From positions 1-64,000 of the forward strand of contig JABDJO010000103.1 of assembly GCA_013002465.1 (NCBI GenBank): a DNA stretch of 64,000 nt. The letters run 5' to 3'. Of this stretch, positions 33,406 to 48,949 are shown piece after piece (the stretch's first letter is position 1; every line of letters begins with the position of its first letter). The translations under genes and the position numbers were made by a program. This DNA comes from Silicimonas sp. GTDB lineage: Bacteria > Pseudomonadota > Alphaproteobacteria > Rhodobacterales > Rhodobacteraceae. Under the pieces are notes generated by a model that ran no database searches, was not told the DNA's origin, and saw nothing but the letters and a program-made list of their open reading frames with translations.

Positions 33406-34995
33406 TTAGAAACCGACGACGGCACCATCGCTTCGGGGATCGGTCGCGCCTTCGATCAGACCATCGGGATGGTGGACAAGGGCGCCGGCATGGCCGGTAA
33501 CGTCGTCGAAATCGCTTAATATTTCAACGGGATGGCCAGCGTTTCGCAACCAGTCGATGACATCGCCGTCGATCCGGTTTTCCAGTTTGAGCGTCGTAGA
33601 TTCCGCGCCCCATGTCCGACCCAACAGCCATCTTGGAGCCGTGACGGCCTGCTGCAATTCCTGCCCGCAAAGTACATGGCGGGCAAAGATCATCGCTTGG
33701 GTTTGGGGCTGGCCTTCGCCGCCCATGGTGCCATAGGCCATAACGCGACCATCTGACAAACGGGCAAGCGCGGGCTGGATCGTGTGGAACGGGCGGCGAC
33801 CCGGTTTCAGGCAATTGTGGTGCGTCGGGTCAAGCGAAAAGCTGGTGCCTCGGTTCTGCCAGGTGATGCCGGTTTCATCAAGGATCACGCCCGCGCCGAA
33901 CTCCCAATAGATGCTTTGGATGAAGCTGACTGCGCGACCTTCACCATCAACGGCGCCAAGCCAGACGGTGTCGCCCTTGTCGCTGGAGTGCGGCCAGGGA
34001 GCAGCCTTTTCGGTGTCGATATCGACCGCCATGGCACTTAGCCGGTCGTCGGTAAGGAAATCGGCAGGGTCCACATTCATATAGGCGGGATCGGTGACAT
34101 GGGCGTCGCGCCGACGGAATGCCTGCTTCGTAGCTTCGACAAGTCCGTGGACAAATCGGGCGGTTTCAGCTTCGTGAATGTTCAGCCGATCATAAACCCC
34201 AAGCAGGATCAGGGCCGCCAGCCCTTGGGTCGGCGGCGGCATGTTGAAGACCTCGTGACCCGCGACATCGAGCGACAGAGGGGTGACATCAAGGGCTTGG
34301 TGGCGCGCCAGATCGTCGCCGTCGATTGGGCTGCCAATGAGTTCGAGATCGGCGGCGACGGTGCGGGCAAGATCGCCGCGATAAAAGCTGTCCAGCCCGT
34401 CTCGGGCCAGCCGCCGGAACGTTTCGGCAAGACGGGGTTGGGTTAGTCGCTGTCCGACGGACGGAACTTGGCCGCCAGGCAGGTAAACCTGCGCAAATCC
34501 GGGGGCAACATCCATTTCGCCGCGTTTCGCCGCGATCAGATCTGCCAAAGTGGTCGGAACTGCAATGCCTTTCTCGGCATGGTGGATGGCGTCTTCGAAC
34601 AGGCGATCCAGTGGCATTCGCCCGCCCCAGGCCGCACTTTGATGCAAGGCCCGATCCCAGCCCGAAATAGCGCCGCCAACAGTCAAGGCGGCAAGGGGCC
34701 CGCGGGACGGAATCTGTTGGAACCCCTGACTGGTATAGAAATCAATGTCGGCGGCCTTGGCCGCAGCGCCACAGGCGTCGATGGCCCGGACCGGGGTGCC
34801 GGGTTCATGGATCAGCCAAAAATTGTCGCCGCCCAATGCATTCATATGTGGGTAGACCACCGAAATCGTTGCGGCTGCGGCCACCATTGCTTCGATGGCA
34901 TTGCCGCCCTCGCGCAACACCCGCAGCCCGGCTTCGCTGGCCAAGTGGTGCGGGGCTGTGACCATGCCACGGTAAGCGCGGGTGGTTTGCAGCAT
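33406..34995 (-). CDS. hpxW: Gamma-glutamyltransferase-family Ntn hydrolase, probable oxamate amidohydrolase
   Basis: A 529-residue GGT-fold protein. The probable autoprocessing Thr nucleophile lies in KGDTVWLGAVDGEG, where typical GGTs have TTH; upstream the large-subunit part has REGGNAIEAMVAAAAT and ALGGDNFWLI. There is no signal peptide, unlike periplasmic GGT. The Klebsiella HpxW oxamate amidohydrolase belongs to this family and is of similar length. It is the last gene of the allantoate/oxalurate operon, 19 bases after the DUF2877 gene, where oxamate would be produced, so hydrolysis of oxamate to oxalate and ammonia is the best-fitting role. A plain GGT is the alternative. Confidence 0.78.
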   Translation of the reverse strand: MLQTTRAYRGMVTAPHHLASEAGLRVLREGGNAIEAMVAAAATISVVYPHMNALGGDNFWLIHEPGTPVRAIDACGAAAKAADIDFYTSQGFQQIPSRGPLAALTVGGAISGWDRALHQSAAWGGRMPLDRLFEDAIHHAEKGIAVPTTLADLIAAKRGEMDVAPGFAQVYLPGGQVPSVGQRLTQPRLAETFRRLARDGLDSFYRGDLARTVAADLELIGSPIDGDDLARHQALDVTPLSLDVAGHEVFNMPPPTQGLAALILLGVYDRLNIHEAETARFVHGLVEATKQAFRRRDAHVTDPAYMNVDPADFLTDDRLSAMAVDIDTEKAAPWPHSSDKGDTVWLGAVDGEGRAVSFIQSIYWEFGAGVILDETGITWQNRGTSFSLDPTHHNCLKPGRRPFHTIQPALARLSDGRVMAYGTMGGEGQPQTQAMIFARHVLCGQELQQAVTAPRWLLGRTWGAESTTLKLENRIDGDVIDWLRNAGHPVEILSDFDDVTGHAGALVHHPDGLIEGATDPRSDGAVVGF

Positions 34996-35014
34996 TCTTG
35001 AGGCTCCCGTTCCT

Positions 35015-35887
35015 TCAGGCCGCGTGGTCTGCGGCCAGATCCGTGTACGCCGACAGCACCGCCTGGATCCCAGCCAATGCGTCCCACCCCGAGGAATGGC
35101 CAATTCGCGCCACAAGGGCAAGTGCGGTGTCCAGATCCCGGCCACCGTCGATCAACGCGTTCATTGCCCGGTGTAGAGAGGCACTGCCCTGTCCCTTGGC
35201 AGCGGCGGACAACAGGGCGTGAGAAATCTCGTTTGTGTCGGTGAAGGCCCGGTCCTGGATGGTGTTCCACAGGTTTTGGGCCGCATCGCCCTTGCCAGCG
35301 GCACAAAGTGCGATCATCACACCGCCCAGAAAGTCGTCACCAGAAGGGGTCAGCCCGGGCCCGCGTCCTATCAATGGAACGGCCCAGTCAGCGCTGTTCT
35401 GTACTGGCAGACCGGGCATGACATCGGCAAGCCAGTGGTCCATTTGCGTTCGAACCTCGGGGATTTCCCAACCCTGAACGCCTAGGCCGGAGGATGAGGG
35501 GTTCAAGGTCGTGCTGGACAATCGCTGCAGGCCCAGGCGAAGCGCACCCGATGAAAGATGCCGGGCACGGGGCGGCGACCAGATGGAAACGTTGCCAAGG
35601 TTGACCCTTAGATTGGCGATCTGAAGCATGTGATTGGAAAGAAAGGTTTTCTGACCGACGATTATGCCAAAACGCCGCATGCCGGTCGAGCCGGGGATGT
35701 CGGTTTGAAGGTTGATCGGCCCTGGTTCGACCTCGCTATCGGTTACGGCAACAAGGCCGTCGCCGTGCCTGCAATAGACCACGGAACGGAAAACCGCCTG
35801 GACACGTCCGGTCCCTTTCTCGATCAAATGCGGCGCCAGGATCGACCCTGCAAGACGAGCGCCTACTTCATGCATCGGGCACAACAT
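35015..35887 (-). CDS. allH: DUF2877 protein, AllH-type subunit of oxamate carbamoyltransferase
   Basis: About 290 residues with the DUF2877 hallmark LIGRGPGLTPSGDDFLGG. In E. coli the homologue (formerly ylbF) is one of three gene products, AllFGH, that form oxamate carbamoyltransferase. The 5' end overlaps the carbamate kinase gene; the ATG at 35887 and one at 35875 (ATGCATGA, spanning the upstream stop) are both possible, while the longest frame from 35929 adds unlikely sequence. Lies between allK and the GGT-family gene. Confidence 0.85.
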   Translation of the reverse strand: MLCPMHEVGARLAGSILAPHLIEKGTGRVQAVFRSVVYCRHGDGLVAVTDSEVEPGPINLQTDIPGSTGMRRFGIIVGQKTFLSNHMLQIANLRVNLGNVSIWSPPRARHLSSGALRLGLQRLSSTTLNPSSSGLGVQGWEIPEVRTQMDHWLADVMPGLPVQNSADWAVPLIGRGPGLTPSGDDFLGGVMIALCAAGKGDAAQNLWNTIQDRAFTDTNEISHALLSAAAKGQGSASLHRAMNALIDGGRDLDTALALVARIGHSSGWDALAGIQAVLSAYTDLAADHAA

Positions 35888-36833
35888 GAGTTCCGGCGGT
35901 GCCCGCCAGAGCCTCGGCAGCCTGATCAAGATGCGCGATGATCACCCGTTTTCCGCCACGATCGAGAAAGCGGAGCGTGGCTTCGATCTTGGACCCCATG
36001 CTGCCAGCAGCAAAGTGGCCTTCGTCCTGATATCGGCGCAACTCGCTGACCGTGACGCGATGCAGAAGTCGCTGTTCCGGAGTGCCGAAGTTGATGGCCA
36101 CATTGGGCACCGCGGTCAGGATCATCAGGGTTTCGATGCCCAGAACGTTGGCCATATGCGCCGAGGTCAGGTCCTTGTCGATGACCGCCTCGACACCGTT
36201 GCGCACGCCATTCGGCCCGCGCACGACCGGAATGCCGCCGCCGCCGCCCGCAAAGATGACCGAACCGCGCTTGGCCAGGTCTTCTACCAGCGAAATGTCG
36301 CAGACGTGCAGCGGCGTCGGCGAGGGCACGACATGACGCCAGCCCCTGCCTGAATCCTCTTTCATCTGCCAGCCCATGTCGCGGGCCAGTCTCTGTGCCT
36401 CTTCCTCGGAATAAAACTCTCCGATCGGCTTTGTCGGGTTCTGGAAGGCCGGGTCGTCGGGGTCGACCTCGACCTGGGTCAGAAGGCACGCGGCATGGCG
36501 TGGGTTACCGGCTTCTCGCAGGGCGTTTTCCAGGGCCTGCACAAGAAGATACGCGATGCCGCCCTGGGAATGGGCCACGCAGATATCCAGCGGCATTGGC
36601 GCGATTGTGTCGCTCGTAAGCGCCTGTCGCATAAGGATTTTGCCCACAACTGGCCCGTTTCCGTGGGTGATGATCAACTCGTTGTCCCGCAACGCCAGCG
36701 GCAAAAGAGCCTGAGCCGTATGTTCGGCGATGTCCTTTTGTTCGCGCGACGTGCCTTCGATGTCCTCGGGGTGGGTGGCATTGCCGCCGATGGCAACAAT
36801 GATGCGGTCGGGGATATCGAAGTCATTTGTCAT
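35868..36833 (-). CDS. allK: Catabolic carbamate kinase
   Basis: Transfers phosphate from carbamoyl phosphate to ADP, yielding ATP, CO2 and ammonia. 321 residues, amino-acid-kinase fold: IIVAIGGNATHPED at the start, THGNGPVVGKILMRQ, SPTPLHVCD, FAGGGGGIPVV and GSMGSKIEATLRFLD. Its place three bases after the FdrA gene and before DUF2877 parallels E. coli allK (ybcF) and makes a catabolic role likely, rather than an arginine deiminase partner. Confidence 0.92.
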   Translation of the reverse strand: MTNDFDIPDRIIVAIGGNATHPEDIEGTSREQKDIAEHTAQALLPLALRDNELIITHGNGPVVGKILMRQALTSDTIAPMPLDICVAHSQGGIAYLLVQALENALREAGNPRHAACLLTQVEVDPDDPAFQNPTKPIGEFYSEEEAQRLARDMGWQMKEDSGRGWRHVVPSPTPLHVCDISLVEDLAKRGSVIFAGGGGGIPVVRGPNGVRNGVEAVIDKDLTSAHMANVLGIETLMILTAVPNVAINFGTPEQRLLHRVTVSELRRYQDEGHFAAGSMGSKIEATLRFLDRGGKRVIIAHLDQAAEALAGTAGTHVVPDA

Positions 36834-36836
36834 GGG

Positions 36837-38318
36837 TCAGCCTGTGTCCAGTGCGGCGAGCGCCCATTGTGCCGCCTCGGCATTGCTGGGGGCCACATAA
36901 AGGCCGGCGGCCTCCAGGCGCGCCATCTGAGAGGAACGCCGTTGCGGATCGCCCTCGGTGCCCGTGATTGAGGCGATGATCGCGGGGCCAGCGTCGCTTC
37001 GGTGCCGGTCGACAAGTTCGGCCACATGTCCCGCCGGGTCGTCGTGGGCGCCATAGCCGATCACAACGTCCAGCAGGATCGCGGCCAGATCCTCGCGCCC
37101 GAGGGCTTCGATCAGCGACGCATCCCGCACGCCGGGGTCGATCATCGGGTGGGGGCGACCTTTGGTATATTCGTCGTCGCCGAGGTCAAGAAGAAGGTGA
37201 CCCGTTTTATCGCTCTGGGGCGCAATGCCCGCGACCGGTGCGTTCGATCGCACTTTCTGCCCCGCATCGCGCAGGACGACCTGGGCTTCGGCGCAAAGCG
37301 TGCCGCCCGAAAAGAGGCCGAGGATGCCGCCACCATTGCGCGCCAGACCGGCAGGTGGTTTCATCGCCGCGTCACTTCTGCCCATGGCGGCAAGCGCAGT
37401 GTCACGCAGGGTGTAAACCTGGGTAATCCCGTCCGGTATCTGAAGCGGTTCGGACCCCATCAGGCAGATGATCGCTGGTTTGCCACCGGCCGAAAGCCGG
37501 TCAAGCACCTGGGCTGTCACATCGGCCCCGGGCGGTTTGGCAATCAGCACGATGTCTTTCGTGCCCTCGTCAGAGGCAAGGGCGTCGATGGCCATCAGGG
37601 TTGAAATGCCGCCGACTTCGGATTTCAGGTCGCGCCCCCCGACACCAATGGCGTGGCTGATGCCGCCGCCCATCTGCGCGATCAAGCAGGTGACTTCCTG
37701 AATGCCGGTGCCAGAAGCGCCAACGATACCGGTGGTCCCCCGGGGCACTTGGTTTGCGAAGGCCAGCGGAGTTCCGGCGATGATCGAGGTGCCGCAATCG
37801 GGACCCATCACCAGTCGACCCAGTTCGCGGGCTTCCTGTTTCAGGGCGGCTTCGTCCTCGATCGCCACATTGTCGCTGAATATCATGGCGTCGATCCCGC
37901 GACGGATGGCCTTTCGTGCCTCAGCGACGGCGAAATCACCGGGCACCGAGATCAGGGCGAGGTTGGCATCAGGCAGGCTGGTCAAGGCCGAGCGAAGGGT
38001 GCGGGGCGCCCAGGCTTCACCGGAGCCGTCACCGCTTGAAGGCGCGTCAAGCTGGGCTTCGGCTTCGGTCAGTGCGCCTTTTGCCTTGGCTTCGCTTTCT
38101 GCGCGGATCGCGATGACCAGATCGCCACCGCCCGCGCTGCGCCCCGCATCCGACAATACGCCAGCGTCGGTCATGATCTCGATATTGGCCGGTGAGCCCA
38201 TCATCAGAGCGGCCTCTTCAACCCCCGGCATGGCGGCAATGCCGCGCGACAGCCGCATCAGGGCCACGGAATCCAGATATGTGCCGCGTCTTACGATGTT
38301 CAGGACAAACCCGCTCAT
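36837..38318 (-). CDS. allF: FdrA-family protein, AllF-type subunit of oxamate carbamoyltransferase
   Basis: A 493-residue succinyl-CoA-synthetase-like protein. Its N-terminus SGFVLNIVRRGTYLDSVALM and the first CoA-binding-like domain are followed by GPDCGTSIIAGTPLAFANQVPRG and GIVGASGTGIQEVTCLIAQ, hallmarks of FdrA. E. coli FdrA is about 60 residues longer at the C-terminus; the missing part appears as a separate small gene at 39570-39704. Overlaps allG by four bases. Works with DUF1116 and DUF2877 proteins. Confidence 0.9.
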   Translation of the reverse strand: MSGFVLNIVRRGTYLDSVALMRLSRGIAAMPGVEEAALMMGSPANIEIMTDAGVLSDAGRSAGGGDLVIAIRAESEAKAKGALTEAEAQLDAPSSGDGSGEAWAPRTLRSALTSLPDANLALISVPGDFAVAEARKAIRRGIDAMIFSDNVAIEDEAALKQEARELGRLVMGPDCGTSIIAGTPLAFANQVPRGTTGIVGASGTGIQEVTCLIAQMGGGISHAIGVGGRDLKSEVGGISTLMAIDALASDEGTKDIVLIAKPPGADVTAQVLDRLSAGGKPAIICLMGSEPLQIPDGITQVYTLRDTALAAMGRSDAAMKPPAGLARNGGGILGLFSGGTLCAEAQVVLRDAGQKVRSNAPVAGIAPQSDKTGHLLLDLGDDEYTKGRPHPMIDPGVRDASLIEALGREDLAAILLDVVIGYGAHDDPAGHVAELVDRHRSDAGPAIIASITGTEGDPQRRSSQMARLEAAGLYVAPSNAEAAQWALAALDTG

Positions 38319-39565
38319 GAGACCCCCAGTGTATCGGCGAAGGTTGTCAGGGCCTGGGTGAAGCAGGGCATCGGTGCGCGAACCACGCCCGCACCGACCT
38401 GACCAATACCGGGTTCACGGTGCGCGATGCCGGTGTTGATTGTGGGTGCAAGTCCGGTTTCGACGACCAGACGAATGTCGATGCCCGTCGGCACGCCAAG
38501 ATAATCCATCGCCGGGATTGTCCACTCGGCGTTTTCGGTCACCGTGATCTCGCCCATGCGGCGCGTGAAATGACCCGCTTCCGATGCCGCACCGGCACCG
38601 ACGAACCCGGCCACGGCAGGCGAAGCACCCATGGCAAAGCCACCAAGACCGATGGTTTCCACGATGGCGCTGTCGCCCATGTCGGGATTGGCGTCCTTTT
38701 CGGAGTATCCGGGGAAATACAGCCCGTCGGGCATTTCGACCGGAGCCGTAAACCATTGCTCTGACGTACCGCTGACGCGAATGCCAAAGTCGGTGCCATT
38801 GCGGCTCATGGCGGTGACGATGGAACATCCTTCGATCCCGTTCATGGGGTCGGTGATCGCCTTGCCCAGACCCATGGCGATGTTGAGGAAAAACTGGTCA
38901 TTGCCAGCGATAAAGGCCAGCGCGCGGGACAATTCGGCCGTGTCGTCGGCGGTGTCGGCAAGGGCAGGGGCCAGGGCGCGCAGGGTCAGACCGGAACAGG
39001 CCACGTTGCGCTGGTGCATTTCGTCGCCCATGGACAGGCCGCGTGCGATTATGGGTTTCAAAGGCAGACCGCCCATCGACCGGATCGCACGGCCCAGGGC
39101 GGGGCCAAAGCTGTCCTTCAGCCACCGAAGACGATCCAGCACCTCGGCGTCGTTGCCGCCAAAGCGCATGACCTTGCCCAAGCCTTCGTTGATCGCGCAA
39201 TAGGCCCGGTTGCCGAAAGTCTTGTTTTCGACGACCAAAAGCGGCTGCGATACCGTCGTCATGCCTGTCATCGGCCCGACTGCATCGAAATGGTGGTTGG
39301 GATGGAAATCAAAATCACCGGCGCGGGCGCGGCGTTCGGCATCGCCAAGATCGTCGGCCCAGCCCTCAAGGACGGCGATGCCCATGATCGCGCCTTTCAT
39401 CGGTCCGCACATGCGATCCCATTCAATTGGCGGACCGGCGTGGAGGATCATACCCGGTTCAAGCGCCGGAATTGCCTCGTGCGCCGGGATCACGTCAATC
39501 AGAACCGGGTCACCGGTCAGAAGCCGTTCCAGGGCAGCCTGATTGGCTTTTTCGATCAATTCCAT
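38315..39565 (-). CDS. allG: DUF1116 protein, AllG-type subunit of oxamate carbamoyltransferase
   Basis: A 416-residue YlbE/DUF1116 protein. Conserved blocks: LHAGPPIEWDRMCGPMKGA, HHFDAVGPMTGMTT, NRAYCAINEGLGKVMRFG, and INTGIAHREPGIGQVGAG. In E. coli this is part of AllFGH, which splits oxalurate with phosphate into oxamate and carbamoyl phosphate. The ATG at 39565 gives the normal N-terminus; the frame opens further upstream through the small FdrA-tail gene in another phase. Confidence 0.92.
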   Translation of the reverse strand: MELIEKANQAALERLLTGDPVLIDVIPAHEAIPALEPGMILHAGPPIEWDRMCGPMKGAIMGIAVLEGWADDLGDAERRARAGDFDFHPNHHFDAVGPMTGMTTVSQPLLVVENKTFGNRAYCAINEGLGKVMRFGGNDAEVLDRLRWLKDSFGPALGRAIRSMGGLPLKPIIARGLSMGDEMHQRNVACSGLTLRALAPALADTADDTAELSRALAFIAGNDQFFLNIAMGLGKAITDPMNGIEGCSIVTAMSRNGTDFGIRVSGTSEQWFTAPVEMPDGLYFPGYSEKDANPDMGDSAIVETIGLGGFAMGASPAVAGFVGAGAASEAGHFTRRMGEITVTENAEWTIPAMDYLGVPTGIDIRLVVETGLAPTINTGIAHREPGIGQVGAGVVRAPMPCFTQALTTFADTLGVS

Positions 39566-39569
39566 CGCG

Positions 39570-39704
39570 TTAGCTGCCAAGCTTTGCAAGTAGGGCGGCC
39601 AGTTTGGCATCGCCGCCCGCAGGTGGTGTCCAATCGACGTGCAGGGTCTGAACGCCCTGGGCGTCCAAGTCGCGCGCGAAACTTTCCAGGCCGATGTTGA
39701 TCAC
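39570..39704 (-). CDS. Tiny stand-alone FdrA C-terminal module
   Basis: Read from GTG at 39704 (AAGGA nine bases upstream), 44 residues: VINIGLESFARDLDAQGVQT then HVDWTPPAGGDAKLAALL. I recognise this as the short C-terminal segment of FdrA proteins, absent from the 493-residue FdrA in this operon. An ATG at 39744 just after pucG begins a plausible MSDKSTLLQGPL N-terminus, but one extra T in a TTCTTTC run puts it out of frame with the conserved part. So either the GTG start is real, or there is a one-base insertion or a frameshift site. Ends five bases before allG. Confidence 0.65.
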   Translation of the reverse strand: MINIGLESFARDLDAQGVQTLHVDWTPPAGGDAKLAALLAKLGS

Positions 39705-39739
39705 TTTCAGCGGTCCTTGAAGAAGTGTGGATTTGTCGC

Positions 39740-40996
39740 TCATGCACCTGCCTCGTCATAAACATCGTATGCCGCATCAATGCCTGCGTTGGCCGGGGCT
39801 TCATAGCCACTTCGGCGCAGGGAAGCGTCAAGCGAGGCAAGGCACCTCAGGACGTTGGCCTTGCGGCACACATATCCCATGGTCCCGATCCGCCAGATTT
39901 TACCCGCCAGCGGTCCGAATGAGGTGCCGATTTCGATGCCAAAGTCATTCAGCATTGCCGCGCGCAGTGCTTCGCCGTCACCGCAAACATCGGGAATGAC
40001 AACGCCGGTCACATTGGCCATGCGGTTCTCGGCATCGCCGAACAGTTTTAGCCCCATGGCCTCCAGTCCGCCGCGCAGGGCCCGGCTGGTCAGGCGGTGG
40101 CGGGCCTGACCGGTATCAAGCCCTTCTTCCAGAACCACGCGGGCGCATTCGTGGGCGGCATAAAGCATCGAGGTCGCTTCGGTGTGGTGGTTCAGACGCT
40201 TCGGCGACCAATAATCCATGATCATGGCCAGATCGAGGTAGTTCGACGTGATGCGCGGCCCCGTTGCGTCAACGGCGCCTTCGGGCTTGATGCCGCCTTC
40301 AATGTGGCGGCGATTGTCGATCACTGCCGCAGCCCTGTCGCTAAGTGTGATCGGCGAGGTGCCAGGGGGGCCGGACATGCACTTTTGCAGCCCTGTCGAG
40401 ACCGCGTCGAGGCCAAGGGTATCGGTGTCAAAAGGGTTGCCGGCAATTGAGGCCGTCGCGTCGGAATAAAACAGCGTGTCGGTTTCCCGGCAGACCTCAG
40501 CCAATCCTTCAAATGGCTGCATCATGGTGGTCGAGGTGTCGCCATGGACAAGGGCAAGAACGCGCGGGCGGTGATGGCGTACGGCCTCGGCGATCTGATC
40601 GGTGGTGAATACCGTGCCCCATTCGGCTTCTATCGAGATCACATGGCCACCGGCCCGAAAGGCGATTTCTGCCAAGAGATGGCCAAATCGCCCGAACATC
40701 GGCACCAGCACTTTGTCCCCATGGGCAATGAGCGAACCCAGACACGCCTCGATCCCGGCCCGGGCGGTGCCGTCGATCAGAAAGGTCCACTGGTTTCGCG
40801 TGCGAAAGACCTGACGATAAAGCTCCATCGTCTCGTTCATGAAGCCGGTGAACTCGGGGTCGAACTGCCCCAGCATCGGCATCGCCATGGCGCGCGAGAC
40901 GCGTGGATAGACATCGATCGGCCCCGGGCCCATCAGAAGCCTTGGTGTGGGGTCAAGTGCGGGCGTAATGACTTTATTTTCAATGGGTTGCCTCAA
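39740..40996 (-). CDS. pucG: (S)-ureidoglycine--glyoxylate transaminase-like PLP enzyme
   Basis: Class V aminotransferase of 418 residues. N-terminal LLMGPGPIDVYPRVSRAM, cofactor Asp in FYSDATASIAGNP, and PLP Lys in STGLQKCMSGPPG. Such proteins are often labelled alanine-glyoxylate transaminase; in purine clusters, as B. subtilis PucG, they convert ureidoglycine and glyoxylate to oxalurate and glycine. Beside AllC and the oxamate carbamoyltransferase genes this role fits exactly. TTG start at 40996 with GGAGG nine bases upstream, overlapping the allC stop. Confidence 0.88.
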   Translation of the reverse strand: MRQPIENKVITPALDPTPRLLMGPGPIDVYPRVSRAMAMPMLGQFDPEFTGFMNETMELYRQVFRTRNQWTFLIDGTARAGIEACLGSLIAHGDKVLVPMFGRFGHLLAEIAFRAGGHVISIEAEWGTVFTTDQIAEAVRHHRPRVLALVHGDTSTTMMQPFEGLAEVCRETDTLFYSDATASIAGNPFDTDTLGLDAVSTGLQKCMSGPPGTSPITLSDRAAAVIDNRRHIEGGIKPEGAVDATGPRITSNYLDLAMIMDYWSPKRLNHHTEATSMLYAAHECARVVLEEGLDTGQARHRLTSRALRGGLEAMGLKLFGDAENRMANVTGVVIPDVCGDGEALRAAMLNDFGIEIGTSFGPLAGKIWRIGTMGYVCRKANVLRCLASLDASLRRSGYEAPANAGIDAAYDVYDEAGA

Positions 40997-42327
40997 GTCT
41001 CCAAGCCTCCGATACGTTCGACCGTGCGCAACAGAAGCTCGGCTCCGGCGATAGCGTCTTCGCGGGTGATCGATTCGTCAGGGTTGTGGCTGATGCCGTC
41101 TTTGCAACGCACGAAGATCATCCCGACATCGGTGATCTCGGCAAGGGCGGCGGCGTCGTGGCCGGCACCGCTTGGAAGTTTGAAGGGGCGATGACCAAGG
41201 TCCGTCATGGCGTCTTCGATGGCATCGACGATCCAGGGTGCCGAGGTCACGCCGTCCGCGGAATGGGACTGTTCGAGCACAATATCGACGTTACGGCGAT
41301 TGGCGATGTCTTCAAAGCGTTTGGTCAGATCGTTCACTGCCTCACGACGCACGGCGTCGTCGGCGGCGCGGAAATCGACCGAAAAGACGACCTTTCCCGG
41401 GATCACATTGGTTGCGCCGTGTTCCGCTTCGATCTGTCCCACGGTGCCCACGGCATATGGGTGGGCGGCCGCAACTTCTTCAACCGTCAACACGCATTCG
41501 GCTGCTGCTGCCAGGGCATCCTGACGTGCGCCCATCGGCACCGTTCCGGCATGGCCCGCTTTGCCAGTTGCGGTCACCGTCATCCGGTCCGCCCCGGCAA
41601 TGGCCGTCACTGCGCAAACGGCAAGATCTTCCGATTCAAGCACCGGACCCTGTTCGATGTGGACTTCGAGATAACAAAGGAAATCGCCCTTTTGGCGCGC
41701 AGCCTCGCCGATACGATCGGTGTCTAGGCCAAAGTCGGTCATTGCCTCGGCCAGCGTGATGTCATCCTTGTCGGCGCGATTCAGCAGGTTGAAGTCGAAT
41801 GTTCCCGCAATACCGCGGCTTCCAAGGTAGGTGGACTGAAACCGCACGCCTTCCTCGTCGGTAAAACAGGCGACCTCAATGGGGTTCTTCAGGCGGGCAT
41901 TCCGAATGTTCAACGCCTTGACGCAGTCAATGGCGGCAAGGATGCCCAACGGGCCATCGTATTTTCCGGCCTTCACGACGCTGTCCAGATGCGATCCCAG
42001 CAGGATGGCCGGCGCTTTGTCGTCGGTCCCTTCGTAGCGACCCATAAGATTTCCGGTCGCGTCCTCCCAGACTTTCATGCCTGCATCGCGCATCCAACCC
42101 GAAACCAACGTGATCACCTGTCGGTGTTGCGGTGTAAAGCACCGGCGGGTCAGGTGTTTTTTGGATTCGCTGATCTCGGCCATGCGATCCAGCCGGTCCA
42201 TGATATCGGCGCTAACATTGTCCTGGTGTGTCACGCCATCCCCCATGGTCGCATTTTCATCTTCGGAACTGATTATCAGGGATGCGGGGTCACTGGCCAT
42301 CCTCACGAAGGTATTTTTCTCTGTCAT
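40993..42327 (-). CDS. allC: Allantoate amidohydrolase (M20 family)
   Basis: Metal-dependent hydrolase of 444 residues that converts allantoate to ureidoglycine, CO2 and ammonia. Metal ligands visible in LGSHLDSVVKAGKYDG (His, Asp), CFTDEEGVRF (Glu-Glu) and LEVHIEQGPVLE; the dimerisation domain has GKAGHAGTVPMGARQDA, and the C-terminus LPSGAGHDAAAL. The N-terminus is about 25 residues longer than usual, and an ATG at 42246 may be the real start. Begins four bases after glpD. Confidence 0.88.
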   Translation of the reverse strand: MTEKNTFVRMASDPASLIISSEDENATMGDGVTHQDNVSADIMDRLDRMAEISESKKHLTRRCFTPQHRQVITLVSGWMRDAGMKVWEDATGNLMGRYEGTDDKAPAILLGSHLDSVVKAGKYDGPLGILAAIDCVKALNIRNARLKNPIEVACFTDEEGVRFQSTYLGSRGIAGTFDFNLLNRADKDDITLAEAMTDFGLDTDRIGEAARQKGDFLCYLEVHIEQGPVLESEDLAVCAVTAIAGADRMTVTATGKAGHAGTVPMGARQDALAAAAECVLTVEEVAAAHPYAVGTVGQIEAEHGATNVIPGKVVFSVDFRAADDAVRREAVNDLTKRFEDIANRRNVDIVLEQSHSADGVTSAPWIVDAIEDAMTDLGHRPFKLPSGAGHDAAALAEITDVGMIFVRCKDGISHNPDESITREDAIAGAELLLRTVERIGGLET

Positions 42328-42331
42328 CCCA

Positions 42332-43828
42332 TCATCCCACAGTTGCCAGCCAGTCGTTCAGGGACTCGCGCTCGTCCGTCGAGAATGTCACGCCATGTTT
42401 GGTCCGGCGAAACAAAAGATCGTCAGCCGAACGCGCCCATTCATGGTCGATAAGCCAGCGGGCTTCGCGCTCATAGAACTGCCCGCCAAAATGCGCGCCC
42501 AAATCCGCAAGGGACTTGGCATCGCCCAAAAGCCTGTCTGCATCCGTTCCATAGCAGGTGATCAGATGCCGGGCGAGAGGGTCGGGAAGCCAGGTGTGGC
42601 GCGCGCGAAAATCACTTGCCCAGCCATCCTTGTCACCGTCTGGAAAGTCGCCGCCGGGCAGGGGCGCGTCGTGCGTCCATGGCTTGGACATCTGGGGCAG
42701 GTGGGGCGCAATAAGCGCCAGCGCGGCCTCGGATAATTTGCGATAGGTTGTCAGTTTGCCACCAAACGCCGACACGATTGGTGCGCGCCCTTCGCTAACG
42801 TCGACCTCGAACGTGTAGTCACGGGTGACGGCCGAGGCGCCTTCGGCACCGTCATCGAACAGCGGCCGCACGCCCGAATAATCCCAGATCACATCGTCTG
42901 ACGTAAGGTTGACCTTGAAATAGCCATTGAGGATATTCAGCAGATAGTTCGTTTCTTCCGGCGAGATCGCCACGTCTTCGGCGCGGCCATCGAAGGGAAT
43001 GTCCGTTGTGCCAATGGCGGCCAGGTCGTCAAGGTAGGGATTGACGAAAATCAGCCTATCATCAGGGGCTTGGAGCGCATAACCGTGGTCGCCCTTCCAC
43101 CATCGTTTGGTGATGATGTGGCTGCCCTTCACCAGGCGAACGCGCTTGTCCGAATTCACTCCGGCCACGTTGCCCAAGACGGTTTCGACCCAAGGACCTC
43201 CAGCGTTCATCAGGGCGCGGGCCTTCAGGGTTTTGGTTGTCCCGTCGTCCTGTTCCAAGGTCGCTATCCAAAGTCCGTCTTCGCGCCGCGCGGATGTCAC
43301 CTTGGTGTGTGTCAGGATTTCGGCGCCGCGCCGAGCGGCATCGACGGCGTTCAACACCACCAGCCGCGCATCGTCGCACCAGACATCGTGATAGGCAAAG
43401 GCGTGGCGGTACTGGTCCTTGACCACATCGCCTTCGGGATCGCGATCAAGCCGGATCGAATATGTTGCCGGGATGCGCTTTCGCCCCCCAAGGTGGTCGT
43501 AAAGAAACAGCCCCAGACGCACCAGCCAGCGCGGGCGTTGTTCGGGGGAATGAACCAGCACAAGTCGCAATGGAGATGCCAGATGCGAAGCCGCGCGCAA
43601 GATCACTTCGCGTTCTTTCAGGGCCTCGCGAACCAGACGAAACTCGTAATATTCCAGATACCTCAGCCCGCCGTGGATGTACTTGGTGGCGCGTGACGAC
43701 GTTCCCTGCGCCAGGTCGTCTTTTTCCGCCAGCACAACCGAAAGCCCGCGTCCGACAGCGTCGCGGGCGATGCCGGTTCCGTTAATGCCTCCTCCTATAA
43801 CAAGCAGATCGACGACGGAATTGCTCAC
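42332..43828 (-). CDS. glpD: Aerobic glycerol-3-phosphate dehydrogenase
   Basis: Membrane-associated FAD enzyme that oxidises glycerol 3-phosphate to dihydroxyacetone phosphate and passes electrons to quinone. 498 residues: FAD loop LLVIGGGINGTGIARDA, SRATKYIHGGLRYLEYYEF, and the DAO C-terminal SAFGGKLTTYRKL. No other glp genes are near. It ends only four bases before allC, so it may be co-transcribed with the allantoate genes, an unusual combination. Confidence 0.95.
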   Translation of the reverse strand: MSNSVVDLLVIGGGINGTGIARDAVGRGLSVVLAEKDDLAQGTSSRATKYIHGGLRYLEYYEFRLVREALKEREVILRAASHLASPLRLVLVHSPEQRPRWLVRLGLFLYDHLGGRKRIPATYSIRLDRDPEGDVVKDQYRHAFAYHDVWCDDARLVVLNAVDAARRGAEILTHTKVTSARREDGLWIATLEQDDGTTKTLKARALMNAGGPWVETVLGNVAGVNSDKRVRLVKGSHIITKRWWKGDHGYALQAPDDRLIFVNPYLDDLAAIGTTDIPFDGRAEDVAISPEETNYLLNILNGYFKVNLTSDDVIWDYSGVRPLFDDGAEGASAVTRDYTFEVDVSEGRAPIVSAFGGKLTTYRKLSEAALALIAPHLPQMSKPWTHDAPLPGGDFPDGDKDGWASDFRARHTWLPDPLARHLITCYGTDADRLLGDAKSLADLGAHFGGQFYEREARWLIDHEWARSADDLLFRRTKHGVTFSTDERESLNDWLATVG

Positions 43829-43920: not shown

Positions 43921-44775
43921 TCAGATCTCAATTCTGAGGCCATCGCTTCCGATGTAAAGAGGGCCGTCGAAATGCGGAGTGACCGCTTTCACCCAATCAG
44001 CGTGGGTAAAGTCGGGATCGTCGGCCGGCAGAAGGTGGTGCAGTGCCAGAGCCCTGACACCGGCCCCGGTCGCAATCCGGGCGGCATCGGCGGCAGACGT
44101 ATGCGAGCGTTTCAAATGCCGCATCAGACGATCGTCCGCGTTTCCGATCCGCGCCATCAGGGCGGGAAGCGCGTCTTCCAACATCGCCTCGTGGATCAGC
44201 AGATCGGCGTCTTTTGCGAAATCGGCAAGCTCAGGGAAGTACCGCGTGTCGCCGGAGAATACGACGTGGGTGTCATTTTGGCGAAACGACAGTGCATATG
44301 TGTCGACGAGTGGCGGATGCAAATTTCGAAGAGCGGCGACCTGAAGACCGTCACGATCAAAAAACGTCCCTTCTTCAATCACATGAAACCGTGCAAGCGC
44401 ACCCAGGTCCGGGCGCCCCTCGTCCTCGATCCGAAGCTGGATGTCCGCGTCCATGGATTGCAGGAACCCATTCCAATAGGTCTCAAGTCCCTTGGGCCCC
44501 CAGATTTCCACGGGCGTTTTCAGTCCCGCAGTCCAGGCGGTGTGCAAGAGCGGGCCAAGTTCCAGATAGTGGTCCGAATGCAGATGGGTGACGAAGATCA
44601 ATTCGATCGCCTTCAATTGAACGCCCTGATCGACCAGACCACGCGTCACTCCCAAACCGCAATCCACAACAATGCTGCGCCCATCAAGAACCAGCAGGCT
44701 GGACGTTGGATTGGATGACCCGGTGCGGATTGCAGGCCCTCCCTTTGTCCCCAATAATACGACTTCGTTTTGCAA
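43921..44775 (-). CDS. Metallo-beta-lactamase-fold hydrolase (RNase Z-like)
   Basis: A 284-residue MBL-fold protein. Zinc motif FVTHLHSDHYLELGPL, further ligands in FSGDTRYFPEL and HEAMLEDAL, and ALHHLLP near the end; the GVTRGLVDQGVQLKAIELIF region is RNase Z-like, though the tRNA exosite arm is missing. Probably a small-molecule or phosphodiester hydrolase. 92 bases upstream of glpD on the same strand, hence perhaps the first gene of the long operon. Confidence 0.85.
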   Translation of the reverse strand: MQNEVVLLGTKGGPAIRTGSSNPTSSLLVLDGRSIVVDCGLGVTRGLVDQGVQLKAIELIFVTHLHSDHYLELGPLLHTAWTAGLKTPVEIWGPKGLETYWNGFLQSMDADIQLRIEDEGRPDLGALARFHVIEEGTFFDRDGLQVAALRNLHPPLVDTYALSFRQNDTHVVFSGDTRYFPELADFAKDADLLIHEAMLEDALPALMARIGNADDRLMRHLKRSHTSAADAARIATGAGVRALALHHLLPADDPDFTHADWVKAVTPHFDGPLYIGSDGLRIEI

Positions 44776-45248: not shown

Positions 45249-47711
45249 GTGCACAAAAACGAAGTGATCGACCTGCGCAACTACCGAGACGCAGAAGTCG
45301 AAGATGAAACAGGCGAGGATCCGGCGTCACAGTATTTGCGTGCGGGAACCATCCTGCTTCATGGCCAATACACGATCACCAAGTATCTGAATTGCGGCGG
45401 CTTCGGCATTACTTATCGGGCCATAGACAGCCTTGGCCGCGATGTTGTGATCAAGGAATGCTTTCCCGGCGCGCTGTGTTTCCGGACCGGGAACGACATG
45501 TGTGCCCGCAAGCCTGCCTATAAGGACGAACTGGAATCGATCGTCGGGCATTTCATCAAGGAAGCCAAACGTCTGGCGAACCTTCAGCACGACAACATCG
45601 TGCATGTGCATCAGATCTTCGAAGAGAACCACACGGCCTACATGGCGATGGATTTCATCGACGGTCCCGACATACTGGATATTCTCGAAGAAGACTCGCT
45701 GGAGCTTTCGCCGCTGGATGTCGAATTTCTGACCGAGAAGTTGCTTCATGCGATCAAGTTTGTTCATGACCGTGGCATACTCCATCGGGATATTTCGCCC
45801 GATAACATCCTGATCGACAAGCAAGGCGAACCTGTTCTGATCGACTTTGGGTCAGCCCGGGAACATGCCACAAGTTCGGATCATACGATTTCCCGGCTGA
45901 AGTTCGTCAAGGACGGGTATTCGCCACAGGAATTCTACATCGCAGGCAGCGATCAGGGAACCTGGAGCGACATCTATTCCTTTGCCGCTTCGGTGTATCA
46001 CATGGTCGCTGGACATGCGCCAGTTGACGCGCAATCCCGGCTTGCGGCGCTCGCCACAAAGACCGACGACCCTTATGTGCCGCTTGTCGGACGAATTGGT
46101 GGGTATCCGCCGCGTTTCCTTGAGGCGATCGACAAGGCGCTGGAGGTTATGCCGGAAAACCGGATCCAGACCGCTGACGAGTGGATTGCCGCCCTTGTCA
46201 GCCGACCGATCTTGTCACGCAAAAACGTGTCGCGGGTGACTTCGCGGATTATCGAGGCCTCGGAAGAGGATTCAGGACGCAAGGTTATCGCCATTGCTGC
46301 GGCCGTGGGTGTGGCGGCCATTGGATTGACGGCCTTGCTGGTGTTTGGGCCTTCGAAGGATGCGGGCCTTTCGTCGCCGTTTGAGGAAATGGCGGCGGCG
46401 GGGCCTGTCGAAACCACACCGATCATGGTTTCCGACCAGGAGGTGCTTGCGGCGAACGCAGGGCCGGAGGCGATCATCGCCGAACCCACCTTGGATATTG
46501 CCGTGCCGGGGACCGGACAAACCCCTGATGCGATAGTTGCGGTAACACCCGAGCCGGTGCCCGATACGCTTGTCGAACCAGGTCCGATTGTGGTCACCGA
46601 AGCGACGCCAGGCGCCTTGGCCGAAGTGCTGCCCGTCGTGGCCGAGAACACGGGAATTGATCTGGCCAATGGCCAGGACGTGCCACGCGTTGCTTCGATT
46701 GACGCCCTGCCTGTGAAGGGGATCGCGCTTGTCTCGTTTCCACCGCCTGCAGTGGCAGTTTCATTGGCGCCCACGCCTCTTGCCATTGGTACTGGCGATG
46801 ACGCCTTGGCGTTCAAGGTGTCACCGGGAACAAAGGTCACTCCGGTGGCTGGGATTGCCGCTCTTGCGGCACCTGTGATTGAGGGGGGGCCAGAGATTCC
46901 GCGCCTTCCTACCAAACCTGATGCAGTCGATACGTTCGAAGTCAGCCGTTTTGAACCCGGTTCGATCGAAGTGGCGACCCTGACTTTGCCCGGTTCGCAC
47001 CATGTAACGCCAACCCCGGGCCTCAATGATCTGCCAACGGTGATCGGGGAGAAACTGGCCACGGTCGACACGACCGCGCCGCCTTTCTTCCAGAAAAGGG
47101 GGCCCTTGGCGGCAACGCAGGTCGATTTCTCGCACTGGGATGTCGAAATGCCGGTCTTGTCCGTGCCCGAACGTGTCCGCAACTCGAACACGATCAGGAT
47201 TACCGAGATCACCGACGCAAACATCCTTGGCATGTCAGGCGATTGGATCAAGGAAGGCGTTGTTATCTATTCATTTAACGGCGAAACGCTTCAACCCGAC
47301 ACGACGCTTTCGACCCATATCTTGAATGCCCTGCTGATTGATCCTGACGGATACGCCCGTTCAACCGTGCGGTATCGTGACCCCGACAGCGGAACGATTG
47401 ACCGCGGCTTGATTGCCGTTCCGGCGGTGCGTCGGATCGGATTGGCCGACGGCAGCATCTTCGAAGCCCGCATGAAAGATCTGAACTGGTTGATCACGGT
47501 GGTCGAAGTCGGCCGGGCTGCAGACGGATCGTTGCGTGCGGGCGATGTGCTGACCAAGGAAATGACGACGGGCGTTCTTTTGGCATCGCACGAAGACCTT
47601 GCCAAGGCACTTGAACAACTGGTGGTGCGCAAGGTCGATACCGCGCAATTTGCCGTTCTTCGGAATGGCAGTGAAGTACAGGCAAGCTGGTCGCTGGCCC
47701 GCGAGGACTAG
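45249..47711 (+). CDS. Transmembrane Ser/Thr protein kinase with periplasmic PDZ-like C-terminus
   Basis: 820 residues. Cytosolic Hanks-type kinase domain about 41-318: glycine loop NCGGFGITY, K69 in VVIKE, HRDISPDN (D181 catalytic) and DFG at 199-201. One membrane helix (about 345-367), then a long Pro/Ala/Val-rich low-complexity periplasmic stretch to about 640, and two C-terminal segments (about 660-740 and 740-820) resembling PDZ repeats, for example ILGMSGDWIKEGVVIYSFNG and AADGSLRAGDVLTKE. GTG start. Followed by two LysM/substrate-binding genes on the same strand, which suggests that it signals from periplasmic cues. Targets unknown. Confidence 0.92.
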   Translation: MHKNEVIDLRNYRDAEVEDETGEDPASQYLRAGTILLHGQYTITKYLNCGGFGITYRAIDSLGRDVVIKECFPGALCFRTGNDMCARKPAYKDELESIVGHFIKEAKRLANLQHDNIVHVHQIFEENHTAYMAMDFIDGPDILDILEEDSLELSPLDVEFLTEKLLHAIKFVHDRGILHRDISPDNILIDKQGEPVLIDFGSAREHATSSDHTISRLKFVKDGYSPQEFYIAGSDQGTWSDIYSFAASVYHMVAGHAPVDAQSRLAALATKTDDPYVPLVGRIGGYPPRFLEAIDKALEVMPENRIQTADEWIAALVSRPILSRKNVSRVTSRIIEASEEDSGRKVIAIAAAVGVAAIGLTALLVFGPSKDAGLSSPFEEMAAAGPVETTPIMVSDQEVLAANAGPEAIIAEPTLDIAVPGTGQTPDAIVAVTPEPVPDTLVEPGPIVVTEATPGALAEVLPVVAENTGIDLANGQDVPRVASIDALPVKGIALVSFPPPAVAVSLAPTPLAIGTGDDALAFKVSPGTKVTPVAGIAALAAPVIEGGPEIPRLPTKPDAVDTFEVSRFEPGSIEVATLTLPGSHHVTPTPGLNDLPTVIGEKLATVDTTAPPFFQKRGPLAATQVDFSHWDVEMPVLSVPERVRNSNTIRITEITDANILGMSGDWIKEGVVIYSFNGETLQPDTTLSTHILNALLIDPDGYARSTVRYRDPDSGTIDRGLIAVPAVRRIGLADGSIFEARMKDLNWLITVVEVGRAADGSLRAGDVLTKEMTTGVLLASHEDLAKALEQLVVRKVDTAQFAVLRNGSEVQASWSLARED

Positions 47712-47825
47712 GACCGGTTGCGACAGGTCACAGGTGGCAGCCGATTTTTTCGCCAACCTGTGAACCACGTCGACACGGAACGAGTGCAGTTGGTATCATC
47801 CGAAAAAAATAATGGGGTACAGGCA

Positions 47826-48860
47826 ATGCAAAACCTCGCAGTGGCGATAATCGTCCTGATCATAGCGCTGATGAGCGGCCCGGAACGGGTCGAGGCTCAG
47901 GAGGCGTGCGAGGTCTACCGCGTCAAGCGCGGCGACACTTTGCGAAAGATCTCAAGGCGGGTCTTTGGCTATGAAAATTTCCGCAGCATTTATCGAGAAA
48001 ACGCAGCCGAGATCGGGCGAAATCCCAATCTGATCCGCGTCGGCATGGTATTAAGGATGCCCTGCCCGGAAGGTGCAGCAAAGCCAGAGTCGGATCCGAT
48101 CGGACAGGCCGAAATCAGCTTTGTCACCGCCAATGGGTATCTTCCCTATACGGATGAAAGTCTGGGCAATCGCGGCCTGTTCACGCATCTGGTCAGCAAG
48201 GCCATGTTGCGGGCTGCGCCGGAAAAACCGTTCGAGATCGTCTTTGTCAACGACTGGTCGGCGCATCTTGAGACGCTTTTGCCCAAACTGGCCTTCGACG
48301 CCAGTTTCCCCTGGACGCGGCCTGGCTGTGAAACTCAAGGCGAACTGACCTCGGTCGAGCTTTATGCCTGCCAAAATTATGTCTACTCGGATCCGTTCTA
48401 TGAGATCGTGGATGGCTTTTTCTCTCGCAATGGTACGGGGTTCGACACAGTCATTGATGCAAAAGGGCTGAAGGGCAGTACGATTTGCCGGCCCGAGGGC
48501 TATCCAACGGGCCATCTGGAAGAACTTGGGCTGATGCCGCCCGAGGTGACATTGATCCAGCCAACCACGTCTTATGCCTGTTTTGATCAACTCATGCGCG
48601 GCAAGGCCGATCTGGTGGCCCTGGATACGCGGGCAGGCGAACGGGTTCTTCAGGATCTTGGGCTAAGCTTCAAAGTCGCCGAGAATCCGCACCTTTTCAG
48701 CATCCAGCCGCTTCGTGTGGCGTTGCACAAATCCAACCCCAAAAGCGAAGAACTGATCAGCGTTCTTAACGCGGGGCTGAAAATCATGCTGGAAAGCGGA
48801 GAATGGTCCAGCATCGTGACCGAGGGCCTTCAGGAACAGGTAGGAGCCCTGGTGAATTGA
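47826..48860 (+). CDS. Secreted LysM plus substrate-binding-domain protein, copy 1
   Basis: 344 residues. Signal peptide to about VEAQ; then a LysM domain (about 30-78, VYRVKRGDTLRKISRRVFG ... IRVGMVLRMPC) bracketed by two cysteines that could form a disulfide. The rest (about 93-340) is a type-3 periplasmic binding fold: ISFVTANGYLPYTDESLG, FVNDWSAHLETLLPKLAFDA, ICRPEGYPTGHLEELGL. No permease genes are near, so ligand sensing at peptidoglycan is more likely than transport. Start ATG at 47826; 114 bases after the kinase. Confidence 0.88.
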   Translation: MQNLAVAIIVLIIALMSGPERVEAQEACEVYRVKRGDTLRKISRRVFGYENFRSIYRENAAEIGRNPNLIRVGMVLRMPCPEGAAKPESDPIGQAEISFVTANGYLPYTDESLGNRGLFTHLVSKAMLRAAPEKPFEIVFVNDWSAHLETLLPKLAFDASFPWTRPGCETQGELTSVELYACQNYVYSDPFYEIVDGFFSRNGTGFDTVIDAKGLKGSTICRPEGYPTGHLEELGLMPPEVTLIQPTTSYACFDQLMRGKADLVALDTRAGERVLQDLGLSFKVAENPHLFSIQPLRVALHKSNPKSEELISVLNAGLKIMLESGEWSSIVTEGLQEQVGALVN

Positions 48861-48949
48861 CCACGCAGATAGGGGGCCATTCGCCCCTGGAACATCACAT
48901 CAAGATCGAATCATAAAAAATTGAAACATATCGAGAAAGCGAGCAACAA

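Follow-up and report, generated by a model that had tools for sequence, protein, structure and literature searches.

An operon of Silicimonas sp. predicted to recover nitrogen and ATP from allantoate, with an HpxJ-type aminotransferase, an oxamate transcarbamylase module and an HpxW-type protein

Layout and gene content of the run

The stretch of DNA analyzed here, referred to as the window, comprises 64,000 nucleotides of contig JABDJO010000103.1 of Silicimonas sp. (Rhodobacteraceae, assembly GCA_013002465.1). Its minus strand carries, from 42327 to 33406, a run of eight genes in the order allC, pucG, tail, allG, allF, allK, allH, and hpxW, delineated by open reading frames as well as by matches to Pfam and NCBIfam models. 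Taken from allC to hpxW, the junctions measure -4, -4, +4, -4, +3, -20, and +19 bases, corresponding to overlaps of 4 or 20 bases and gaps of 3–19. The minus-strand run described in a first-pass annotation of the same DNA is confirmed by these data, and its list of eight genes stands, except that it omitted glpD, located 4 bases upstream of allC. The operon would quite likely provide a urease-independent route for the recovery of nitrogen and ATP from allantoate. The observed basis for this proposal consists of the presence of the genes, their family membership, key residues, conservation, and co-occurrence, whereas every reaction, the acceptor of the aminotransferase, and the role of the tail protein as a subunit are inferred from them. 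The genes are as follows.

40993..42327, minus strand: allC, predicted allantoate amidohydrolase (allantoate to ureidoglycine, NH3, and CO2); NF006775; 33% identity to E. coli AllC
39740..40996, minus strand: pucG/hpxJ, predicted ureidoglycine aminotransferase (forming oxalurate); TTG start; best match 3NNK; Gln44 and Asn269
39570..39743, minus strand: 57-residue tail protein, stand-alone C-terminal module of FdrA/AllF; positions 505–554 of the 555 in profile NF004760
38315..39565, minus strand: allG (DUF1116/PF06545), putative oxamate transcarbamylase subunit; homologue of E. coli YlbE/AllG
36837..38318, minus strand: allF core (FdrA without the C-terminal tail), putative oxamate transcarbamylase subunit; positions 4–491 of the 555 in profile NF004760
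35868..36833, minus strand: allK, predicted catabolic carbamate kinase (carbamoyl phosphate and ADP to ATP, NH3, and CO2); TIGR00746 and NF009007
35015..35887, minus strand: allH (DUF2877/PF11392), putative oxamate transcarbamylase subunit; homologue of E. coli YlbF in part
33406..34995, minus strand: hpxW, predicted GGT-family oxamate amidohydrolase (oxamate to oxalate and NH3); chains A and B of 5HFT; D/TVW site
42332..43828, minus strand: glpD, glycerol-3-phosphate dehydrogenase, upstream neighbor; NF009906, 728 bits

The longest open frame of hpxW begins too early, at 35145, and the start is most likely at 34995; the start of allG at 39565 also differs from that of the longest frame. The first enzyme, AllC, exceeds the cut-off of the allantoate amidohydrolase model NF006775 (508.6 bits, cut-off 479) and falls below that of the AllC model TIGR03176 (235.7, cut-off 597.75), with an identity of 33% to E. 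coli AllC extending over 378 residues.

The oxalurate-forming and oxamate-consuming enzymes

In B. subtilis, PucG converts ureidoglycine to oxalurate by transamination. When compared by phmmer with proteins of solved structure, the window aminotransferase is closest to 3NNK (508.5 bits), followed by 3ISL, which is PucG (440.6), and then by 1VJO, an alanine-glyoxylate aminotransferase (AGXT, 259.5). The structure 3NNK is labeled as a ureidoglycine-glyoxylate aminotransferase (UGXT) and corresponds to HpxJ; the protein from K. pneumoniae is 59% identical to that of the window. Gln44 and Asn269 of the window protein, within the motifs GQFDP and LNHHT, align with Gln37 and Asn264 of PucG, which we take to be the residues setting the specificity for ureidoglycine, whereas 1VJO has His and Tyr in the equivalent positions. 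This pair is kept in 30 of 30 relatives, of which 7 come from genomes of the same class and 23 are whole frames from the 28 pucG loci found among the 80 AllG loci introduced below (L036, L043, L052, L091, and L093 were dropped), and it is absent from two paralogues in the genome of the window (L114 and L115). The aminotransferase is thus predicted, as the first-pass annotation had proposed, to be of the ureidoglycine type; it shares the specificity residues of PucG but is nearest to Klebsiella HpxJ.

It is very improbable that this class V enzyme is an aminotransferase of the ordinary alanine-glyoxylate or serine-glyoxylate kind, in which case the operon would yield no oxalurate. Public records do name such proteins "alanine--glyoxylate aminotransferase family protein", and the best NCBIfam models are those of other transaminases, all of them scoring under their cut-offs, but the best AGXT structure lies 181 bits below 3ISL and differs at both specificity positions, and the Gln and Asn residues are retained throughout the close relatives.

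The identity of the amino group acceptor is a separate question. HpxJ-type enzymes may accept 2-oxo acids other than glyoxylate, and a preference for pyruvate or oxaloacetate, yielding alanine or aspartate in place of glycine and making the route independent of any glyoxylate-producing branch, is a possibility that we consider less likely. The greater similarity of the window protein to 3NNK and to the K. pneumoniae enzyme than to PucG would agree with it, as would the consideration that ureidoglycine fully turned to oxalurate gives no glyoxylate. On the other hand, AllE- and AllA-type genes present in the genome would provide glyoxylate, and the β-hydroxyaspartate cycle also encoded there could consume glycine together with glyoxylate. 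Glycine, which the first-pass annotation listed as a product, would be formed if glyoxylate is the acceptor, but that acceptor had been assumed.

At the other end of the run, the GGT-family protein is matched by both chains of 5HFT, which we take to be the oxamate amidohydrolase HpxW, with scores of 313.5 bits for chain A and 270.3 bits for chain B, jointly covering nearly the whole protein. The self-processing site D/TVW is kept, and the score in the gamma-glutamyltransferase (GGT) model (308.7) is below its cut-off of 357.85. In a K. pneumoniae record, the interval between hpxX and hpxU contains two matches to the window protein that abut each other in different frames, with identities of 51% and 62%, and their location beside hpxX supports the assignment of 5HFT as an oxamate amidohydrolase. 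The sequence of the GGT-family protein places it in the HpxW type, in agreement with its earlier annotation.

Two side observations concern this enzyme. The hpxW-like stretch of the K. pneumoniae record (CP125156.1, L133:6311-7866) is read in two frames and the gene is unlisted, which reflects a frameshifted gene or an error in sequencing. Furthermore, three loci (L064, L066, and L099) have an asparaginase-like gene, labeled by eye, together with carbamate kinase and pucG and no hpxW, making its product a candidate for an alternative oxamate amidohydrolase.

The oxamate transcarbamylase and its tail module

Oxamate transcarbamylase remained a global orphan enzyme until 2024 and is described as having three subunits in E. 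coli, where the activity of purified AllFGH was measured by Kim and Kim (PMC11326118); the three genes had been put forward as candidates in a 2012 paper (PMC3364942). Homologues of all three E. coli subunits are encoded together in the run, with AllF, AllG, and AllK homologous to the E. coli proteins across nearly their full length. AllG matches PF06545 with 293 bits (cut-off 27) and, over 414 residues, has 51% identity to E. coli YlbE/AllG; among 14 control genomes, including B. subtilis, this family has a match in E. coli alone. The AllF core scores 496 bits in the FdrA model NF004760 (cut-off 433) and is 43% identical to residues 5–485 of E. coli FdrA. For AllH, the match to PF11392 reaches 81 bits (cut-off 25) and the identity to E. 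coli YlbF, 32% over 137 residues, is limited to the C-terminal half. AllK passes TIGR00746 (359.6, cut-off 358.25) and NF009007 (336.7, cut-off 266), falls below the cut-offs of two further carbamate kinase models (NF009008, 303.1 vs. 361; NF006926, 231 vs. 416), and is 41% identical to E. coli YbcF/AllK. The earlier assignment of AllFGH and AllK by homology to E. coli is borne out, for AllH in its C-terminal half, and each proposed function agrees with the sequence comparisons.

Homology to AllFGH by itself leaves the substrate unfixed; in the window operon it is fixed by the flanking enzymes, since this step lies between a gene expected to make oxalurate and a gene expected to use oxamate. 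As an alternative, the substrate of the AllFGH-like complex could be a different N-carbamoyl compound, in which case two unrelated nitrogen-scavenging steps would be combined in the operon. Sets resembling AllFGHK are located next to a ring-opening amidohydrolase and an NCS2 permease in Citrobacter, or next to a cysteine hydrolase and xanthine permeases in Peptoclostridium, and because of such neighbors the substrates of the family are probably broader than oxalurate. E. coli carries a second set, YahEFG with YahI, and in nitrifiers allFGHK adjoins a biuret hydrolase, with no upstream purine genes (PMC12625717). Nevertheless, the alternative is improbable for the window operon, where the step is bracketed by both enzyme types, where AllG is nearer to E. 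coli AllG than to YahG (44% identity), and where the co-occurrence with UGXT and HpxW, described below, exceeds chance.

Other AllG-like proteins were also noted. A second one in the genome of the window, on contig C84 (L004, 1774-2895), was rejected as a backup transcarbamylase, being divergent (31% identical to that of the window) and encoded on a contig with no match to allF, allH, allK, or the tail; its gene follows two tandem uncharacterized proteins of ~209 residues and adjoins sarcosine-oxidase-like and RidA-like genes, labeled by eye. The AllG-like proteins of L020–L025, 40–45% identical, have no match to the tail, allF, allK, or allH in their stretches and probably represent a different enzyme or set of partners. 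In L077, L081, L085, and L088, AllG is 67% identical and neither the tail nor allF is found in the stretches; in L077, a gene labeled by eye as cytosine-deaminase-like abuts AllG.

The AllF protein of the window is devoid of the C-terminal tail present in the E. coli form, and this module is encoded by a separate gene, the separation representing an altered architecture rather than a loss. In the FdrA model (555 positions), the product of allF corresponds to positions 4–491 and that of the tail gene to 505–554, the latter with an E-value of 5.1e-12. Over 44 residues, the tail is 50% identical to residues 511–554 of E. coli FdrA, with a score of 109 compared with at most 51 in 200 shuffles. The module is C-terminal in the FdrA proteins of E. 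coli and E. gilvus, N-terminal in E. coli YahG and in the DUF1116 proteins of Citrobacter and Peptoclostridium, and free-standing in the window. It is thus a mobile module, found alone ahead of allG, fused to the N terminus of AllG, or fused to the C terminus of AllF.

A scan of 95 loci (14 from the class, 80 from named genomes, and the E. coli locus, where the FdrA query masked the native tail) found the tail in 88 of them, alone in 51 and fused to the N terminus of AllG in 37; these counts are not independent, as at least four genomes are present in both sets of loci. The 51 comprise 50 found directly and L056, where a tail apparently at the C terminus of AllF proved to be an artefact, the E. 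coli FdrA query having matched the tail itself. No AllF sequence (0 of 75) extends at its C terminus by more than 33 residues. When 101 AllG loci were considered, the tail and allF were both present in 79 and both absent in 11, with the tail only in nine and allF only in two (L048, at the end of a contig, and L050, within one). An alignment of 76 tail sequences shows no variation at Gly18, Phe22, Trp38, and Pro40.

Structural data are available for some of these forms. The crystallized construct of E. coli FdrA (3DMY) contains the module. In a model of the fusion of the tail with AllG from L033 (mean predicted local distance difference test score of 80.3), the tail forms an N-terminal helix, followed by a β-α-β unit and further helices. 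The AllG part of this model (residues 58–472) matches 3CLQ with a Z score of 48.7 and a root-mean-square deviation of 2.1 for 407 residues; the tail lies outside that match, and the comparison gave no structural match for its fold. The numbering of residues in 3CLQ, 59–474, hints that the crystallized E. faecalis protein had no N-terminal tail.

The cluster keeps one copy of the module while its attachment alone varies, which suggests that the tail touches both AllF and AllG, and the tail may be a functional subunit of the transcarbamylase. We find it highly unlikely that the tail gene is a remnant of a split FdrA that is decaying or has no relevance. Such a remnant might be expected from its length of 57 codons, with no match to a Pfam model and an NCBIfam score far under the cut-off for a whole protein, and L050 has allF with no tail found beside allG, but the four invariant residues, the presence of the tail, alone or fused, in nearly all scanned loci, and its shared presence or absence with allF in 79 and 11 loci, respectively, argue against it.

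Recurrence, genome context, and the proposed route

The gene combination was followed in the best 80 of 571 relatives of AllG on contigs of named genomes, a sample consequently biased to near relatives, with pucG and hpxW each accepted at an identity of at least 45% within up to 10 kb. Under these thresholds, pucG was found in 28 loci, hpxW in 24, and both in 13. The set of pucG, allF, allK, allH, and hpxW was complete in 12 loci, eight of which also have allC, and nine of the 12 retain on one strand the order of the window (pucG, tail, allG, allF, allK, allH, hpxW); among the full sets, the tail is fused to allG in L033 and pucG is matched in part in L052. The row for hpxW in L128 is odd and looks like a wrong reading frame. 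For the 45 loci having 5 kb on both sides, the counts are 17 with pucG, 19 with hpxW, 11 with both, and 20 with none of pucG, hpxW, and allC. Clustering of the proteins from the 28 pucG loci and the window gave, beyond the known genes, three families present in at least three loci, labeled by eye as PuuE-like (4), short-chain dehydrogenase/reductase-like (4), and asparaginase-like (3).

In 240 genomes of the class, UGXT (identity of at least 59%) is present in eight and HpxW (at least 50%) in 21, whereas AllG exceeds its cut-off in 27 and is of the window type (at least 295 bits) in 13, with UGXT, AllG, and HpxW occurring together in six genomes that bear six different family labels. The Fisher p values for UGXT, computed with thresholds picked after the lists were seen and with no account of kinship, are 2.8e-5 when paired with AllG of any kind, 1.8e-7 with the window type alone, and 5.4e-6 with HpxW; they become 1.9e-4, 2.5e-6, and 4.7e-5, respectively, when the genome of the window is removed. 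The three markers share one contig in G000, G044, and G210, the outermost being at most ~31 kb apart, two share a contig in G184, and none are together in G079 and G128. Neither AllG nor UGXT is present in the two other genomes of the family of the window in this sample. This co-occurrence search, which the first-pass annotation had called for, places the three markers together above chance, though often at separate places in the genome. Chance adjacency of the genes was rejected on the basis of their recurrence in the 80 loci and their co-occurrence across the 240 genomes.

The genome of the window is 93% complete. Its other contigs encode a 5-hydroxyisourate hydrolase, a PuuE-UraD fusion, AllA, a xanthine permease, and BhcA-D, as well as an AllE-type protein that additionally satisfies the model of a bifunctional allantoicase/ureidoglycine aminohydrolase. 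A uricase-like membrane protein (L113:5505-6749, labeled by eye) has no match in NCBIfam. No match to the alpha subunit of urease was found in this genome, whereas oxalyl-CoA decarboxylase is present (959.5 bits, cut-off 739.4); a bicupin oxalate decarboxylase was sought and none was found. The enzymes of AllE and AllA type would form a second branch that leads from ureidoglycine to glyoxylate and urea by way of ureidoglycolate and can provide glyoxylate to the aminotransferase. The bypass of ureidoglycolate claimed in the first-pass annotation therefore holds for the branch encoded by the operon but not for the cell. The genes bhcABCD adjoin the ureide genes allA and the AllE-type gene (L113 on contig C73 and L120 on contig C55); since C73 ends with bhcC and C55 begins with bhcB, these contigs probably adjoin. 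This arrangement suggests that glyoxylate and glycine derived from purines feed the β-hydroxyaspartate cycle.

The proposed route would begin with the splitting of allantoate by AllC into (S)-ureidoglycine, NH3, and CO2. The aminotransferase of the PucG/HpxJ type would then transfer the amino group of ureidoglycine to a 2-oxo acid (to glyoxylate, forming glycine, or to another one), leaving oxalurate. Together with the separately encoded tail peptide, AllG, AllH, and the AllF core would act as a phosphorolytic oxamate transcarbamylase, converting oxalurate and phosphate to oxamate and carbamoyl phosphate, from which AllK would produce ATP, NH3, and CO2, and HpxW would hydrolyze oxamate to oxalate and NH3. 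All four nitrogens of allantoin would in this way be freed or transferred; by our own count, the operon branch would release three as NH3 and move one to an amino acid, compared with three as NH3 and one in oxamate in E. coli (PMC12535856). With no urease alpha subunit found and oxalyl-CoA decarboxylase present, all four nitrogens would plausibly be recovered and the dead-end oxamate of E. coli avoided.

The closest known systems differ from the window operon in defined ways. The HPX system of Klebsiella shares with it an AllC-type amidohydrolase (45% identity), the HpxJ-type aminotransferase, and the HpxW-type protein represented by the two abutting matches, but where the window has the transcarbamylase, K. 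pneumoniae carries hpxX and hpxZ together with an amidohydrolase of the AtzE family, and we take this module to cut oxalurate as an amidohydrolase, without carbamoyl phosphate. For the HpxX/HpxY/HpxZ module, no amidase-signature protein is present among the genes of the run, to which this search was confined, the rest of the genome not having been searched. Klebsiella accounts for 17 of the 193 plasmid records with an AllG-like match, and K. pneumoniae has been reported to be without AllFGHK (PMC11326118).

The ALL system of E. coli, in the order AllE-AllD-AllFGH-AllK, shares the oxamate transcarbamylase and AllK and obtains ATP from oxalurate (PMC11326118, PMC12535856), but reaches oxalurate through AllE and AllD, and its oxamate is a dead-end by-product (PMC12535856); in the window, the run contains no AllD gene, the transcarbamylase genes lie between pucG/hpxJ and hpxW, and AllF is encoded in two pieces. 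The yahE-yahF-yahG-yahI genes of E. coli K-12 (L131:1926-7116) constitute a second set of DUF2877, FdrA-like, DUF1116, and carbamate kinase proteins, with the tail at the N terminus of YahG, but no match to UGXT or HpxW is found within that 9.5-kb stretch. In turn, a 29-kb stretch of plasmid pCR1A of Enterococcus gilvus combines AllC, FdrA, DUF1116, DUF2877, carbamate kinase, and a UGXT-type protein that has the Gln/Asn pair. This stretch differs by the presence of AllE and two AllD genes and by the fusion of the tail to FdrA, and HpxW has no match in it. In Pseudoalteromonas, the place that allFGHK takes in the window is taken by an amidase, accompanied by a GGT (46% identical to that of the window), pucG, and allC.

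In terms of its sequences, the route appears to be that of Klebsiella HPX with the transcarbamylase module of E. coli ALL replacing the oxalurate amidohydrolase; the enzyme types are already known and their combination is new. The statement of the first-pass annotation that E. coli reaches oxalurate by another enzyme is correct, that enzyme being AllD (PMC12535856). Its description of the operon as a distinct version holds with respect to E. coli, which uses AllD and ends at oxamate, and to K. pneumoniae with its hpxX/AtzE/hpxZ genes, but not for UGXT beside AllFGHK, a pairing also found in E. gilvus. Apart from this point, the ureidoglycolate bypass, and glycine, its overall reading was mostly borne out. 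Danchin (2016) treats the chain from oxalurate through oxamate to oxalate in general terms (PMC5270733), and a survey of purine use in the ocean names ureidoglycolate lyase and ureidoglycine aminohydrolase, with no mention of oxalurate or oxamate in its excerpted text (PMC11698098). Within excerpts of open-licence PMC papers, subscription papers being outside the scope, neither the joining of PucG/HpxJ, AllFGHK, and HpxW nor a description of the tail was found.

Several observations weigh against the proposed route. AllH shows low similarity to its E. coli counterpart, and the AllFGHK-like sets of Citrobacter and Peptoclostridium have the other neighbors mentioned above. At the thresholds used, 52 of the 80 AllG loci have no pucG in the stretch and 56 have no hpxW, some of these cases arising from contig ends. 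In 20 AllG stretches from other genomes of the class, pucG was found in none and a close hpxW (at least 57% identity) in three, and two of the eight genomes with UGXT have neither AllG nor a close HpxW. Finally, two proteins of the AllD family, 30% and 27% identical to E. coli AllD and too distant to name, are encoded on other contigs and might provide a second source of oxalurate beside the aminotransferase.

What stands out most in this operon is the swap of a single pathway step, along with a fourth, mobile transcarbamylase module. Two unrelated chemistries, either hydrolysis or ATP-recovering phosphorolysis, would serve the same step, and the operon is a natural setting where the substrate of the transcarbamylase can be inferred from both sides. 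The operon also shows a route by which oxamate, called a dead end in E. coli, could be consumed, points to an unnamed fourth module, and suggests a way for proteobacteria lacking urease to exploit the nitrogen of allantoin in full. A broader proposal has two parts: that a urease-independent route of the HPX type with an ATP-yielding transcarbamylase is widespread, recovering four nitrogens and passing oxalate to oxalyl-CoA metabolism, and that oxamate transcarbamylase is a four-part enzyme with an overlooked module of ~55 residues moving between subunits. Within it, the module, recognizable by the motifs N-x-G-L-x2-F and PPA-x-G and by a conserved Trp, would be located at the AllF–AllG interface and needed for catalysis, because its attachment moves between subunits. 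Taken jointly, we judge the chances of both parts being correct to be evenly balanced.

As for the neighborhood of the run, glpD is possibly co-transcribed with it. It was rejected as a member of the pathway and lies outside the conserved set, as no glpD match is present in the stretches of the 80 related AllG loci. A convergent rnc-like gene, labeled by eye as are the following ones, is located downstream of the run. Upstream and on the same strand, a gene resembling those of the metallo-β-lactamase fold occupies positions 43921–44775, and a similar gene immediately precedes allC in L026, with no glpD in between. Farther away, positions 45249–50044 include a serine/threonine-kinase-like gene followed by a tandem pair of secreted proteins with LysM and solute-binding-like regions.

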